NCBI GenBank assembly: GCA_020630395.1
Contig: JAHDBM010000006.1
Coordinates: 50,187 to 85,053, forward strand
Direction: 5' to 3'
DNA from: Flavobacteriales bacterium
Lineage (GTDB): Bacteria; Bacteroidota; Bacteroidia; Flavobacteriales_D; CAJJDF01
Length of the DNA: 34,867 bases
Of this stretch, positions 19,219 to 25,344 are shown piece after piece (position 1 is the first letter of the stretch; every line of letters begins with the position of its first letter). The position numbers and the translations under genes were made by a program. The notes beneath the pieces were generated by a model. The model was given only the letters and a program-made list of their open reading frames with translations. It searched no databases and was not told the origin of the DNA.

Positions 19219-20049
19219 TTAATTTAATCGAATACCTTTATCTTCTATTTTAATTATTTTATCCTTGTACAAGCCTCCAATAGCTCGTTTAAAGGCTTTT
19301 TTGCTTATTTTGAGTCTAGCATATATCTCATCAGGAGAACTTTTATCATGTAGTCCAGAATAGCCATTATTTTTTTTAAGAAGATTAACGATTTTTTCTT
19401 GATCCTTATCTTTTCTTTCTTGACCTCTTCGATTAAGTCTTACATCAATTTTTTTGTCGTTTCTTATTGTATTAATGAAACCTTTTGCTCTAGTTCCCAA
19501 CTCAACAAACTGAAAGATTTGATTGTGATATACAAGTCCTTTGTAAAGATTATTGATGACTACATTGTATCCAAGTTCTGTTTTTTTATAGAAAAACAAA
19601 TCAACTTCTTGTTCTTCTTCTAGCTCAATATCTTCTAACTCCAAAAATCGATCAATTTTATTGGAGGCGATTAACCGTTCAGATTCATAATCTAAATAAA
19701 GCGTAACAGGATACGATTCTCCAACTTGCATTTTCTCATGTTGTTCTCGGTATGGAACAAAAAGGTCTTTTGGTAAGCCCCAGTCTAAAAAGGCTCCAAC
19801 TTTATTTACGTCAACAACTTCAAGAGATTCAAAGCCATAGAGTTCAATTTTTGGACGAAGTGTTGTAGCTACAATTCTATCTTCAGAGTCTTTGTAAATA
19901 AAAACATCTATCTTATCTCCAATTTTCCAATTTTCTTCAGTGTAGGCATTAGGAATAAGGACTTCATTATTTTCTTCATCTTTAAGAAAATATCCAAAAT
20001 CAGTAAGTCTATTTATCTCAAGTGTATTTACTTCTCCAATATTTATCAT
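19219..20049 (-). CDS. cvfB: CvfB-family S1-like RNA-binding protein
   Basis: The 276 aa protein has tandem S1/OB-like domains (about 1-65, 66-140 and 141-210; note GAFLDWGLPKDLFVPYREQ, a clear S1 strand pattern, and YKGLVYHNQIF) and a C-terminal winged-helix region (about 215-276; KSSPDEIYARLKISKKAFKRAIGGLYKD). This is the CvfB/YitL layout, known for RNA binding and virulence control in Staphylococcus. It is cytoplasmic. Its ATG overlaps the TGA of the terC gene by ATGA, so translation is likely coupled, and it precedes xerD. Confidence 0.9.
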   Translation of the reverse strand: MINIGEVNTLEINRLTDFGYFLKDEENNEVLIPNAYTEENWKIGDKIDVFIYKDSEDRIVATTLRPKIELYGFESLEVVDVNKVGAFLDWGLPKDLFVPYREQHEKMQVGESYPVTLYLDYESERLIASNKIDRFLELEDIELEEEQEVDLFFYKKTELGYNVVINNLYKGLVYHNQIFQFVELGTRAKGFINTIRNDKKIDVRLNRRGQERKDKDQEKIVNLLKKNNGYSGLHDKSSPDEIYARLKISKKAFKRAIGGLYKDKIIKIEDKGIRLN

Positions 20050-20882
20050 TGATTATTTTCTTCTAAATTTTCTGCAGCTATAATTTTCTTTTTATATCTA
20101 GTTTGAACTAAATCAACAACAACTAGAGTTAAAATAATAAAGTAGAAAGTAGTATTGTTCATAGGGGTTATAGGGTTTTCGAAGATATAAATGTGTGCTA
20201 AATGCCCACCTTCAGCAACTAGCATAACACCAACAATAAGTAATATAAATAGACCTAGCACCTCATACATTCGATTTTTCTTTAAAAACTCAGAAACTTT
20301 ATCTGCAAGAACTAACATTAAAATACCACTTATAACAATTGCTATAGACATTACTATAATTTGAGTGTAATAGCCATCAATATCTTTGGTTAACCCAATA
20401 GCAGCTAAAATAGAATCAAAAGAAAAAACCAAGTTCATAATTACAATTGATATAATAACCGAGTTTACAGATTTTTTAGCTCCTTTATCATTTTTTTTAG
20501 TCTCTATATCAGATTCTTGAGATATCATATGCCATATTTCTTTAACGGCAGTATACATTATAAATCCACCTCCAATTAATACAATTAAACTATGAATATT
20601 AAAATGAGAATCAATTATACTATGTATAGCAAAGTCATCAGTTCCTTTTTCGCCAAGATTAATCCCAAAGATTGGATTTTGAAAATATTGTATAAGTGAC
20701 ATTAAGACAAATAATAATACAACTCTTAGTACTATTGCAATCAAAATACCTTTTTTTCTAACAGATGATTGCTTCTCAAGTGGAGCTTTCTTAGATTCTA
20801 AAGAAATGTATAAAAGATTGTCAAAACCTAAAACAGCTTGAAGCATAATTAACATTAGCAGTGTACCAATAATCTCAATCAT
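20046..20882 (-). CDS. TerC-family integral membrane protein (putative metal transporter)
   Basis: I start at 20882 (MIEIIGTLL, 278 aa). An in-frame upstream ATG at 20921 would include a perfect -7 box in its coding sequence. Seven to eight membrane helices are visible. Conserved acidic TerC motifs are GFDNLLYISL near the N terminus and LVFSFDSILAAIGL in the middle; these Asp residues are thought to bind metal. TerC homologues export manganese in bacteria and are linked to tellurite resistance in name only. It leads the terC-cvfB-xerD group and its stop overlaps the cvfB start. Confidence 0.88.
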   Translation of the reverse strand: MIEIIGTLLMLIMLQAVLGFDNLLYISLESKKAPLEKQSSVRKKGILIAIVLRVVLLFVLMSLIQYFQNPIFGINLGEKGTDDFAIHSIIDSHFNIHSLIVLIGGGFIMYTAVKEIWHMISQESDIETKKNDKGAKKSVNSVIISIVIMNLVFSFDSILAAIGLTKDIDGYYTQIIVMSIAIVISGILMLVLADKVSEFLKKNRMYEVLGLFILLIVGVMLVAEGGHLAHIYIFENPITPMNNTTFYFIILTLVVVDLVQTRYKKKIIAAENLEENNQ

Positions 20883-20898
20883 AGTTATAAAATTTACA

Positions 20899-20906
20899 CA
20901 AATATA
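20899..20906 (-). promoter_or_regulatory. -7 box of the terC-cvfB-xerD group
   Basis: On the minus strand TATATTTG fits TAnnTTTG perfectly, 16 bases before the ATG at 20882. The -33 region has only TTT at 20-base spacing. Confidence 0.45.
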
Positions 20907-21005
20907 TTTTTTATAATTCAATAGATAAAGAACTTATCGCTATAAAAGCAAAAGAAGTTGTTACTTTTTAATAATCTTGTCGTTAATGAAGTAAATGAAA
21001 GAAAT

Positions 21006-21548
21006 ATGGGAGATGAAAAAGAAATAATAATCAAAGTTCAAAGAGGAGAATTATCCTTTGAGATTATCTATAACAATTACTTTGTCTCGGTATTTAAATA
21101 TGTATTTAATAGAATAGGAGATAAAGAGTTAACTCAAGATATAGTAGCTGATGTATTTGTAAAAGTATATCAAAACATGAATAAATATCAAGATAGAGGG
21201 TACTCATTTATTAGTTGGGTGTATAGAATAGCACATAATGAAATCATGAATTATTACAGAAGGTCGAAGAAGAGTTATTTCATAGGTATAACTGAGGTTG
21301 CCATATCATCTATTGAAGAAGAATTTGAATTTGATATGAATGAAGATGAAACATCTAAAGTGAATGCCATATTTAATCAGTTAAAAGAAGAAGATGCTGA
21401 ATATCTTAGAATGCGATTCTTTGAAGGATTATCTTTTAAGGAGATAGCTGATTTTTTTAAAACTAAAGAATCAGCAGCAAAAATGAAGTTTTATCGATTA
21501 TTAGATAAAATAAGAGGAATGAAAATTATACAGGATTTAAAAGCTTAA
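21006..21548 (+). CDS. ECF-type RNA polymerase sigma factor
   Basis: The chosen ATG at 21006 gives 180 aa; a TTG at 20958 would add 16 residues without extending homology. Sigma region 2 spans about residues 15-85 (YNNYFVSVFKYVFNRIGD, then AEDI-like TQDIVADVFVKVYQN, YRIAHNEIMNYYRR). An acidic linker follows, then region 4 (about 115-165) with the helix-turn-helix EGLSFKEIADFFKTKESAAKMKFYRLLDKIRG. There is no region 1.1 or 3, so it is an ECF sigma. It is followed 5 bp later by a membrane protein gene, the position normally held by an anti-sigma factor. Confidence 0.93.
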   Translation: MGDEKEIIIKVQRGELSFEIIYNNYFVSVFKYVFNRIGDKELTQDIVADVFVKVYQNMNKYQDRGYSFISWVYRIAHNEIMNYYRRSKKSYFIGITEVAISSIEEEFEFDMNEDETSKVNAIFNQLKEEDAEYLRMRFFEGLSFKEIADFFKTKESAAKMKFYRLLDKIRGMKIIQDLKA

Positions 21549-21553
21549 ATAAG

Positions 21554-23092
21554 ATGTCAACATATAAATCAAAAAAAACGAGCCCCATGTCTGACGAAGA
21601 CATTGAAAAATTAAAAGACTATTCGTCTTTAGCAAACAGAATAAACCCTTCTGTTGCCAAAACGGAGGGCATTAACATAGTTAAACTAGGACTGGTACTT
21701 GGTATAGCCATAGTTTCTTTTCTATTAGGATATTATATCATCAATTCTTTTAAAGATAAAGAGGAATTTGTTGATGTTATTGAAACAAAAGATGAAATTA
21801 AAGAAAAGCCATTTACCTTTTCTAATAATAAGTTTACAGAGTCTATTGTGATATCAAATATAGAGAAAGGATGTAATTGGATAACGAAATCTAATACAGC
21901 TGTTATTATTAAACCAAATAGTTTAATAGATAAAAGTGGTGATGCTGCTACAGGAGAGGTAACCTTGGTTATTAAAGAATATAAAGATGCTGTAGATGCT
22001 GTTTTAGCAGGTATTCCTATGGAATATGATTCAGCTGATTATACCTATAATTTTAGAACTAGGGGAATGTTTGAATTAAGAGCTTATAAAGACGGAGAAG
22101 ACTTACAAATTGCAGATAATAAAAGAGTAGAAGTGTTATTAAGCTCATATTCTTCTCGTAAATCATTCAACACATATTATTTTGATACTATTTCGAATAA
22201 GTGGAATTATACAGAAGCAAATAAAGTTCTAGAGCGTGATATAGTTTATAACAAAACTAATGATGTTGTTAAAGTTGATATTCCAACATCAAAACCAATT
22301 GTGTTAGATTTTGATCCTGATGAATTTCCTGAGTTTAGATCATATGAAAACACTAAATTTTATCCGTTAAGAGAAAACAAAGATAAAATGAATAAACTAG
22401 AACAAACAGATTGGGAAGACATAGAACTGTCAAAAAAAGGAGATCATTACAGCATTACTGCTTTTAATAGAAATGAAGAGCTCGTAATTGAAGTTATGTC
22501 TAGTATACAACTAGAAAAATTAACAAATAAGAAGCTAAATAAGTCAGATTCTGTTGAGAGAAAAATTAATGTTATCAAATATGTTTGGCCAGTTGATGAA
22601 TCTTTAATTTTAGATGATGATGAATATTTAGAAATCAATAATCCAGATTTAAGTTTTAGTGCACAATATCAATACTCTCCAAGTATGCAGTCTATTATAA
22701 ACTCTAGGGTGGTTAGTGTTTTTTCTATGGAGAAATTTGGAATTTGGAATTGTGATGCTCCTGAAAAGCTTCCTAAAGGGTTGTTAGCTAAAAATGTTAA
22801 TTTTATTGATAAAGATTCTAAAGATACACTTGAGTATAACGGTAGTTATTACTTAACAGAAAACGATAGGCAATTAATGTATAAATATTATCGAAATAAT
22901 GAATTTTCATGTAATCCTAAACAGGATAATTGCTTATGGTTTATTCATTTAATTGATAAAAAGCCTCATTTATTTTTTGTTAATAAAGATAACTTTGAAT
23001 TAGATGAGAATGACTATTTCAGAATGAATAAAGTAGAAATTGATCCAGAAAAGATGAATCCATTAGATATAAAACGAATTTTAAATATATGA
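21554..23092 (+). CDS. Single-pass membrane protein of the ECF operon (possible anti-sigma/sensor)
   Basis: The protein (512 aa) has a short N-terminal region (about 1-42, presumed cytoplasmic), one transmembrane helix (about 43-65, KLGLVLGIAIVSFLLGYYII), and a large presumed periplasmic part of 445 residues. The first part of that region has a pattern I know from several Bacteroidota envelope proteins: VIIKPNSLIDKSG, GEVTLVIKEYKDAVDAVLAGIPMEYDS, then RGMFELRAYKDG. A later block reads FGIWNCDAPEKLPKG. No ZAS (HxxxCxxC) anti-sigma motif is visible in the N-terminal part. By position (5 bp after sigma, 4 bp overlap with the next gene) it is the best anti-sigma or signal-transducer candidate, but that is inference. 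Confidence 0.7.
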   Translation: MSTYKSKKTSPMSDEDIEKLKDYSSLANRINPSVAKTEGINIVKLGLVLGIAIVSFLLGYYIINSFKDKEEFVDVIETKDEIKEKPFTFSNNKFTESIVISNIEKGCNWITKSNTAVIIKPNSLIDKSGDAATGEVTLVIKEYKDAVDAVLAGIPMEYDSADYTYNFRTRGMFELRAYKDGEDLQIADNKRVEVLLSSYSSRKSFNTYYFDTISNKWNYTEANKVLERDIVYNKTNDVVKVDIPTSKPIVLDFDPDEFPEFRSYENTKFYPLRENKDKMNKLEQTDWEDIELSKKGDHYSITAFNRNEELVIEVMSSIQLEKLTNKKLNKSDSVERKINVIKYVWPVDESLILDDDEYLEINNPDLSFSAQYQYSPSMQSIINSRVVSVFSMEKFGIWNCDAPEKLPKGLLAKNVNFIDKDSKDTLEYNGSYYLTENDRQLMYKYYRNNEFSCNPKQDNCLWFIHLIDKKPHLFFVNKDNFELDENDYFRMNKVEIDPEKMNPLDIKRILNI

Positions 23093-23781
23093 TTAAGAAA
23101 GTAGTTTATATTGTTCTTTTTCATCTGTTTAGCTTCAGTCTAGTTTTTTCACAAGGAAATGACACTGTTGTTAAGCTTAGACTTAGAAAAAAGAATGCTA
23201 ATATTATCATTAAAAGTGACTCTAATGTTTTGTATAGATGGAGAACACCAAATAAAGTTATTGTTTTTTCTGATAATCCTAAAATACCTGTTGCACATGT
23301 CAGAGGACAAAATATGGAGGTGAAAAAAATTTCAAAAAATAAATATCAATTGTTTCCAGTATATTCAGATACATTAAATTATCAAGGAGGAAAACTTAAG
23401 GTTTATTGCAAAAATAAAAGGGGTAAAATAAAGCTGCATACAATAAAAGAGTTTAAATTTATTGATCCGATTATGCCTAAAGTTTCTATTGCAGGCATTG
23501 GGAATGATTCTGTTATTAAAAGAGATTTGTTAGTGTCTTCTCATCTTAACGCTAATTATAATGGTGTTAATTGTAAAATATTAGCATATAATTTAATTTA
23601 TATGGATGATGATGGTGAGCAAAGTATTATTGAGTATTCGGGTAGGTTTCCTATTCATGTTCGAAATGCTTTTAGAAAACTATCAGCAGGAAGCACCATT
23701 AAATTTCAAGATATTAAAATATTATTACCAAATGGAGAATTAGAAACTGTTAGACTACAGACATATTTTGTTGATTTATAA
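23089..23781 (+). CDS. Exported GldM C-terminal-domain-like protein
   Basis: The 230 aa protein has a signal peptide (about 1-21, ending VFSQ). The rest resembles the two C-terminal periplasmic domains of GldM, the T9SS/gliding motor component: an Ig-like part (about 37-127; LYRW.TPNKVIVFSDN... ending EFKFIDPIMPKVSI) and a last domain (about 128-230) with SVIKRDLLVSS, a central beta core and LSAGSTIKFQDIKILLPNGE near the end, where GldM has a KG-x-VYFEDIKA.GPDG-type block. It lacks GldM's N-terminal membrane helix and first two domains. The start codon overlaps the previous gene's stop (ATGA), so the two are coupled. The similarity is by eye. Confidence 0.55.
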   Translation: MIKKVVYIVLFHLFSFSLVFSQGNDTVVKLRLRKKNANIIIKSDSNVLYRWRTPNKVIVFSDNPKIPVAHVRGQNMEVKKISKNKYQLFPVYSDTLNYQGGKLKVYCKNKRGKIKLHTIKEFKFIDPIMPKVSIAGIGNDSVIKRDLLVSSHLNANYNGVNCKILAYNLIYMDDDGEQSIIEYSGRFPIHVRNAFRKLSAGSTIKFQDIKILLPNGELETVRLQTYFVDL

Positions 23782-23895
23782 AAATTCTTAGCTATTTCAT
23801 GTAGTATAGTAGTTGTTTTATGAAATAATAATCTTTTTTACAGTATTTATTATTATTTTAAAATTTTAAAACACACAATACTCTAAGCTATAAAT

Positions 23896-25344
23896 ATGAT
23901 TAAATTTAGTTTATTAATTAGTCTTTTTTGTTCTTACTCCATTTTTTCACAATGTGGAGGAAATATTAGTTTGTCTACTTGGATTCAAGAAGGGCCAGCA
24001 GCATCAGGTAATTGGTCTGTTAATGCTGGTGGCACTAGTGTTACACAATCGATTAACGGGCAGCCTACTATGTTTGTTAGTCCAGATGACTATATAAACG
24101 TAAGAATTAAAGGTAAGTTTAGAGTAGATGTTGGTTCTGGAGATAATGACTTTATGGGGTTTGTATTTGGCTACAAATCTCCAAATGTTATTAGCGGCCC
24201 TAATGAATGCGATTTTTATCTATTTGATTGGAAACAAGAATTTCAAGTTGTAAGTGGAGTTACAGCAGATGAAGGATTTTCATTATCTAAAATAGATACA
24301 AACATCAATTTATCAAATGCAGCTGCAAATTATCCTGTTTTTTGGGATCAAGAAGATGTTGGTATTAATAGGACTAATTTAGGTAAATACATCAATACGA
24401 CTTTAGGCTGGAATTATAGTCAAACTTATGATTTTGAATTAACATTTACCTACAGTAAAATTATAATAAAAATTGATAATGATACTATTTTTGATGTTAA
24501 TGGATGTTTTCAACCTGGTAGATTTGGATTCTATAATTATTCACAACCGGATGTAACTTATTCAGATTTTTCATATGAACTTATATATGATTTTTATGTT
24601 CCTCCAACAATTACATGCATAGGTGATACTTCAGTTTTTAATGCAGTTTCTGATACTTGTTTTTATGCATTACAAGATACCTCAATTGCATTGTGGAATT
24701 GGGATTTTGGAGATGGAAATTCTAGTACTGACACTGTAGGAATTCACCCATATTCTGCTCCTGGATTATACACTGTGACTCTTGTTGTTGAAGATGTTAA
24801 TGGATGTAGAGATACTACAACACAAACAGTAGATATTAAACCAAAACCATCTGATTTAGATTTGGCTGATACTCTTGAACATTGTTTTGATAATGGTGGT
24901 TTGGTGTTAGATGCAGGTATATGGAATAGTTATTTGTGGTATGATAATACTGTAGGGCAATATAATACAGTTTTTCAAGAAGGAGATTACCGCATAACCG
25001 TTTTTGATCAGTTTGGTTGTGATGTATCAGATGAGATAGCAGTTGTAGAATTTTGTCCTGCAGAGCTTTTAGTCCCTAATGTGTTTTCACCAAATAATGA
25101 TTTTCAAAATGATTCGTTAACTTATTTCGAAAAACATATTTTTGGATTTGATTTTACTATTTATAATAGATGGGGAGAACTTGTTTACCAAACTGATGAT
25201 ATAAATATGTTTTGGGATGGTAAAAACATCAATAATGATAAAGAAGTATCAGATGGCACGTATTATTGGTTTGCCAAGTATAAAGATAAAAAGCAACAAG
25301 AATTTGAGCAAAAAGGAAATGTTACTGTATTTAGAAATAAATAA
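23896..25344 (+). CDS. T9SS type B secreted protein with thrombospondin-C-like and PKD domains
   Basis: The protein (482 aa) has a signal peptide (about 1-18, ending FSQ). Residues 22-235 look like the thrombospondin C-terminal jelly-roll (DNDFMGFVFGYKS...YLFDWKQ, then GRFGFYNYSQPDVTYSDFSYE). A PKD domain follows at about 255-314 (WNWDFGDGNSSTD...LYTVTLVVEDVNG), then an Ig-like segment (318-387) and a gliding-motility-associated, T9SS type B sorting domain (about 390-482; VPNVFSPNNDFQNDSL, YNRWGELVYQT, W-DGK, SDGTYYW). It should be secreted to the cell surface or medium. It lies 114 bp after the GldM-like gene in the same direction; whether it shares that transcript is unclear. Confidence 0.88.
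   Translation: MIKFSLLISLFCSYSIFSQCGGNISLSTWIQEGPAASGNWSVNAGGTSVTQSINGQPTMFVSPDDYINVRIKGKFRVDVGSGDNDFMGFVFGYKSPNVISGPNECDFYLFDWKQEFQVVSGVTADEGFSLSKIDTNINLSNAAANYPVFWDQEDVGINRTNLGKYINTTLGWNYSQTYDFELTFTYSKIIIKIDNDTIFDVNGCFQPGRFGFYNYSQPDVTYSDFSYELIYDFYVPPTITCIGDTSVFNAVSDTCFYALQDTSIALWNWDFGDGNSSTDTVGIHPYSAPGLYTVTLVVEDVNGCRDTTTQTVDIKPKPSDLDLADTLEHCFDNGGLVLDAGIWNSYLWYDNTVGQYNTVFQEGDYRITVFDQFGCDVSDEIAVVEFCPAELLVPNVFSPNNDFQNDSLTYFEKHIFGFDFTIYNRWGELVYQTDDINMFWDGKNINNDKEVSDGTYYWFAKYKDKKQQEFEQKGNVTVFRNK

Follow-up and report, generated by a model that had tools for sequence, protein, structure and literature searches.

A conserved operon of an ECF sigma factor and a probable anti-sigma factor with an exported GldM-like third protein in a Flavobacteriales genome

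The 34,867-nucleotide stretch of a Flavobacteriales genome analysed here (contig JAHDBM010000006.1, positions 50,187 to 85,053; hereafter the window) carries four consecutive genes encoding an extracytoplasmic function (ECF) sigma factor, a single-pass membrane protein, an exported protein resembling the C-terminal domains of GldM, and a cargo protein of the type IX secretion system (T9SS). The conserved unit is made up of the sigma factor, the membrane protein and a third gene of variable content, which in this window is the GldM-like one. An earlier sequence-only reading had described the four-gene layout, and all of its coordinates were verified: 5 bp separate the sigma factor stop from the membrane protein start, the membrane protein gene overlaps the third gene by 4 bp (23089-23092), and a 114 bp gap precedes the cargo gene. 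The features are listed below, with residues numbered within each protein and structural models made with AlphaFold2 (AF2), whose confidence is given as the predicted local distance difference test (pLDDT).

20959-20986, + strand: predicted autoregulatory ECF promoter, TGTTACTTT-N13-CGTTAA (-35 TGTTAC at 20959-20964, -10 CGTTAA at 20981-20986)
21006-21548, + strand: ECF sigma factor, 180 amino acids (Pfam Sigma70_r2 E 3e-14, Sigma70_r4 E 7e-7)
21554-23092, + strand: single-pass membrane protein, probable anti-sigma factor, 512 amino acids
21554-21679, + strand: cytosolic N-terminal segment of the membrane protein, 42 residues, presumed sigma-binding (short AF2 helices 14-21 and 23-30)
21680-21748, + strand: transmembrane (TM) helix, residues about 43-65 (AF2 helix 42-65; hydropathy)
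21839-22234, + strand: ZU5/GAIN-like periplasmic beta domain, residues 96-227 (VIA-align)
22709-22768, + strand: closing strand of the ZU5/GAIN-like domain, residues 386-405
22775-23080, + strand: C-terminal periplasmic beta domain, residues 408-509 (AF2)
23089-23781, + strand: exported GldM D3-D4-like protein with signal peptide, 230 amino acids
23164-23193, + strand: strand-like motif TVVKLRLRKK, residues 26-35 of the GldM-like protein, outside the modelled fold (AF2 pLDDT <50 at 28-33)
23896-25344, + strand: T9SS type B cargo protein (TSP_C, PKD, CHU_C), 482 amino acids, a neighbour outside the conserved module

The first protein possesses regions 2 and 4, both above their Pfam cut-offs, and lacks region 3, as is characteristic of ECF sigma factors, and scores above the cut-off of TIGR02937. 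Its likely start is the ATG at 21006, a longer reading frame from the TTG at 20958 being disfavoured because the predicted promoter overlaps that codon.

Relatives of the membrane protein were gathered from whole genomes of the order and from named Bacteroidota metagenome-assembled genomes (MAGs; the best 80 of 359), two non-random samples that have five loci in common. The MAG relatives were found with an alignment as query, a single-protein query of the contigs having returned none. Three of the 113 full-length membrane proteins lie at a contig start, leaving 110 with usable upstream DNA, and in 108 of these an ECF sigma factor gene is located directly upstream on the same strand within 400 bp; in nearly every case the two genes overlap or are no more than 130 bp apart. 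This adjacency far exceeds what non-random sampling could explain. Exported paralogues that are shorter and share this beta domain, but have no TM helix, are not accompanied by the sigma factor; such ZU5-like-domain paralogues are numerous in the genome of the window (G000) and in other genomes of the order, with several per genome. A profile search of 392 genomes across the phylum, among which close lineages are few, returned only partial matches outside the order, while the MAG scan recovered full-length relatives elsewhere in the phylum as well. The order of the first three genes, which the sequence-only reading had proposed as conserved, is ancient and widespread in Flavobacteriales, Chitinophagales and other Bacteroidota, and clearly not unique to this genome. 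The sigma/anti-sigma family is real and widespread, and apparently undescribed, as literature searches found no paper on it.

The architecture of the second protein is that of a membrane anti-sigma factor, with a cytosolic segment, one TM helix and a periplasmic part, encoded beside its sigma factor. The long presumed periplasmic part noted earlier is borne out, with about 447 residues following the TM helix. No Pfam family was found in any of 43 members of the family, including FecR, the domain of FecR-type anti-sigma factors. The cytosolic segment has the family consensus KINxxR.P...EEI....DF, and its residues 1-32 are conserved above the level of the TM stretch (means of 2.04/1.71 bits vs 1.19). 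Because the cytosolic segment is more conserved than the TM helix, and given the gene order, the membrane protein is most likely an anti-sigma factor, and the 42-residue segment is presumed to bind the sigma factor.

In the AF2 model of the membrane protein (mean pLDDT 77), Foldseek found nothing significant, and it was a second aligner, VIA-align, that revealed a ZU5-like fold in residues 96-227. The best match is to the ankyrin ZU5 domain 4d8o (Z 10.1; 128 residues aligned, 3.0 Å), followed by GAIN domains (Z 9.5 for CD97, and 8.9) and FIIND domains (Z 8.2 for NLRP1, and 7.1); the top 15 rows are mostly of these three types and stand well above unrelated rows. The model also contains a second beta domain (268-316) and a charged disordered stretch (327-383), and the C-terminal beta domain yielded only weak matches to Ig-, pilin- and transthyretin-like folds (Z about 3). 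The first periplasmic domain thus shares the fold of ZU5, FIIND and GAIN domains, but their H[FL]-[ST] self-cleavage motif has no counterpart among the invariant or nearly invariant columns of two membrane-protein alignments, and autoproteolysis by analogy with GAIN and FIIND was rejected since this motif is missing. Near the closing strand, it is G396, N399 and D401 that are invariant.

The third protein had been read as GldM_C-like from its sequence, and profile comparison, solved chains and fold establish true homology. Pfam GldM_4th alone falls under its cut-off (E 0.0013, 19.8 bits vs 24.6). A profile of the first six members of the third-protein group to be recovered matches the C-termini of real GldM proteins in hhalign (96.7%, E 3e-10) and the solved GldM structures 6ey4 and 6ys8 (E 5e-4 and 1e-3, respectively), covering D3-D4. 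Foldseek with the AF2 model clearly gives a structural match, the best seven hits all being PorM or GldM; the homology claim rests on the sequence-only tests because the alignment behind the model contained GldM rows. Compared with GldM/PorM, the third protein shares D3-D4 but is missing the TM helix, D1 and D2, and has a signal peptide and a free N-terminal segment instead. Its gene lies outside gldKLMN, the real gldM of this genome (563 amino acids) being located at G000:C117. Other short GldM D4 proteins occur outside the module (L057:5519-6205, L159:1266-2051, L160:4538-5323, L161:2-871 and L163:3-869), some of which sit at contig ends and may be fragments, and one genome carries GldM twice at full length, the copies lying some 4 kb from each other (G002:C1:2735526 and 2739503).

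A comparison of 79 third genes revealed a variety of contents: nine match FGE-sulfatase (Pfam) and GldK/GldJ (NCBIfam), eight match GldM_4th, four match GldM_3rd, two encode leucine-rich repeat (LRR) proteins, and most are unnamed. One GldK-like third protein matches solved PorK/GldK at E 9e-20 to 1.5e-19, vs 6e-5 for FGE enzymes, and the best match of this class to TIGR03525 reaches E 1.5e-38. When third-gene class was mapped on the phylogeny of 109 membrane proteins and the number of changes compared with shuffling, the GldM-like class was confined to one supported clade of 22 rows, window included, and required a single change (Shimodaira-Hasegawa-like approximate likelihood ratio test, SH-aLRT, 95; shuffled mean 18.9). 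One change also sufficed for the GTIK class, and two for the GldK-like class, found in another clade, with unrelated small exported proteins elsewhere. That third-gene class tracks the membrane-protein lineage suggests that the two proteins touch.

Contact of this kind also bears on an alternative in which the GldM-like protein is an output, i.e. an envelope-stress regulon product that, once the sigma factor is active, takes the place of GldM at the ring or inhibits it there. Encoded in an operon with predicted autoregulation, and having the D4 that contacts the ring but no anchor in the motor, it could indeed compete with GldM. The match between third-gene class and membrane-protein clade is better explained by contact of the two, however, and the operon would co-produce the GldM-like protein with the anti-sigma factor, so we regard the output role as improbable.

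In Porphyromonas gingivalis, PorM D4 and PorK both contact PorN, and PorK and PorN together form a ring (PMC12421860); by the same contacts, GldM-like and GldK-like third proteins could both meet GldN. The contents of the slot in these two clades support a link to the T9SS and gliding machinery, by an argument from resemblance. A rival explanation is that the third protein is a generic periplasmic regulator for a sigma/anti-sigma pair, the GldM and GldK folds being borrowed docking domains and the signal unrelated to T9SS or gliding. Many third proteins are indeed unrelated to T9SS, among them small exported families, the two LRR proteins and the GTIK class. Yet two independent clades use truncated forms of exactly those two T9SS parts that contact the ring, and some further loci, of other third-gene classes, have PorG-like or T9SS type A cargo genes downstream. 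We consider a signal unrelated to T9SS possible but doubtful.

Third proteins of quite different kinds share a short strand-like start after the signal peptide, such as NTIKVRK, GTIKVSK and DTFYVKA, similar to TVVKLRLRKK in the window. With duplicate loci left out, a plain pattern, which was written after the motif had been seen in the first set, matched 21 of 48 third proteins, compared with 8 of the 123 remaining exported proteins encoded at these loci (p 5e-8), and 8 of 13 in the GldM-like subset (p 5e-6). It is a fitting guess that this strand is a docking segment. A likeness of the motif to a TonB box was noticed. Further occurrences lie in the genome of the window: a second sigma/membrane-protein operon of another clade (L040:4189-7125; G000:C127) has a GTVKIRK-type third protein and, where the contig ends, the start of another protein with the motif; in an orphan exported protein (L281, G000:C3:14155) the signal peptide is followed by GTIKVKK, and a TGTAAC-N16-GTTAT site lies 19 bp ahead of the gene start.

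Upstream of the sigma factors, TGTA-18-GTTA occurred in 29 of 82 non-redundant regions against 0.35 expected. The boxes vary by clade, with CTTT-15-TTAT found in 15 of 20 regions of GldM-clade sigma factors (0.31 expected). The pattern TGTWWCTTTN{13}YRTTAW has three matches in the 3.5 Mb genome, one before the sigma operon, one where the gene for a short membrane protein begins and one within a gene. The T9SS regulon envisaged in the sequence-only reading therefore finds no counterpart among these sites, none of which precedes a T9SS core gene, and this is also as expected if the signal were unrelated to T9SS. Two other candidates were dropped: raw TGTAAC-N16-GTTAT matches as a regulon, which are not enriched genome-wide over the reversed pattern, and a conserved TGTAAC..GTTAT about -240 of gldK (family f3), which falls within the coding end of the preceding gene.

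A TGTWWCTTTN{13}YRTTAW-type site does precede gldK in two genomes of one genus (G140 and G059), with the boxes kept and the spacer diverged. More generally, gldK upstream regions of about 40 Flavobacteriales genomes (L058, L319, L329-L368) were compared, and a CGT-box, TG[AT]AAC..CGT[TA]A, lies 80-125 bp before gldK in most of them, including that of the window (L165; G000:C117), whether or not the module is present. Since the box also occurs in module-free genomes, another sigma factor must read the gldK promoter, possibly besides the one in the window. This agrees with the SM6 class of ECF promoters in Flavobacterium psychrophilum, which has a CGT -10 box and serves GldN, PorU, a PorG homologue and an ECF sigma/anti-sigma pair (PMC9723704). 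The gldK promoters and the module promoter share their CGT-type box with SM6. A weak promoter-like site, TGTACC..GTTATA (score 9.6), overlaps the likely real start of the divergent TerC-like gene at 20046-20921 of the window, the TTG at 20921 probably being too early a start.

The fourth gene encodes a T9SS cargo protein with a type B signal (CHU_C 59.1 bits, cut-off 27; TIGR04131 35.0, cut-off 35), and TSP_C and PKD are also above cut-off. It had been counted as part of a four-gene circuit, and it does lie on the same strand 114 bp downstream, across a gap in which neither a strong terminator nor a housekeeping -7 box was found; T9SS cargo genes also occur downstream in L050 and L149-L151, which belong to other third-gene classes (three of the four scanned). 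However, the GldM-class loci examined have no such cargo gene at the corresponding place, the cargo protein lacks the motif downstream of its signal peptide, and no promoter of the sigma operon's type precedes its gene. We judge its membership of a circuit very unlikely and treat the cargo gene as a neighbour outside the module.

In Escherichia coli, the autoregulated RpoE-RseA-RseB operon encodes, in this order, a sigma factor, a membrane anti-sigma factor and a soluble periplasmic modulator that, bound to the anti-sigma factor, governs proteolytic release of the sigma factor. The operon described here agrees in gene order and, by prediction, in autoregulation. Its membrane protein has no sequence-family match to any known anti-sigma factor, its periplasmic part is ZU5-like rather than that of RseA, and the modulator is GldM- or GldK-derived. 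By this analogy a similar mechanism, in outline, is likely. P. gingivalis SigP is likewise an ECF sigma factor linked to the T9SS (PMC4800418), but it is controlled through the response regulator PorX, of the PorX/PorY pair, whereas the sigma factor gene of the window is accompanied by genes for a membrane protein and an exported partner. NF058625, of the PG0214 type (a sigma factor other than SigP), scores 59 on the window's sigma factor against a cut-off of 130.

We hypothesise that the three genes form an envelope signalling module in which the cytosolic segment of the membrane protein would hold the ECF sigma factor and the ZU5-like periplasmic part would act as receiver. The third protein would be a soluble periplasmic regulator built from GldM D3-D4, docking on the membrane protein probably via its free strand-like segment, while its D4 would meet GldM's own T9SS partner, the GldN of the ring. 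If occupancy then changed, with GldN or the ring present, absent or stalled, the complex might be altered and the sigma factor released, to transcribe at least the operon that encodes it. We infer the binding of the sigma factor, the docking, the contact with GldN, and the signal with its sign, and we place the probability of the module as a whole, occupancy sensing included, at roughly 0.55.

Several observations weigh against this proposal. The motif is short and degenerate in GldM-like proteins, and a first trained motif model, which included the five loci shared by both sets, gave only p 0.005 for the GldM-like subset. The window's row in the GldM clade has a long branch (2.57), making its placement less sure, and the promoter pattern points to no T9SS core gene. 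Finally, the third proteins across the wider family are mostly of kinds unlike T9SS parts, which means that the T9SS is not a requirement of the module itself; with the GldM-like protein just one among the various partners of the sigma/membrane pair, motor sensing cannot account for the family in general. Of the sensing circuit suggested by the sequence-only reading, the conserved order and the GldM-like protein are supported, joined by the GldK-like parallel; the cargo gene and a T9SS regulon in this genome are not, and sensing of the secretion or gliding state is a hypothesis.

A broader conjecture, which we offer tentatively and hold to be less likely than not to apply, is that ZU5-like anti-sigma receivers read the T9SS/gliding motor via exported look-alikes that dock by an interchangeable N-terminal strand, so that exchanging the look-alike (GldM D3-D4 or GldK-like FGE) would change the input to the same sigma switch.

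If our proposal is true, it would supply a concrete and testable sensor by which Bacteroidota could tell whether the T9SS and gliding machinery has been assembled and is at work, consisting of a sigma factor, an anti-sigma factor of a fold type new to this role and an exported motor-stalk fragment, and the N-terminal motif would be a handle for finding further partners. It would also mean that parts of the machine were duplicated, trimmed and turned into regulators twice, once from GldM and once from GldK.

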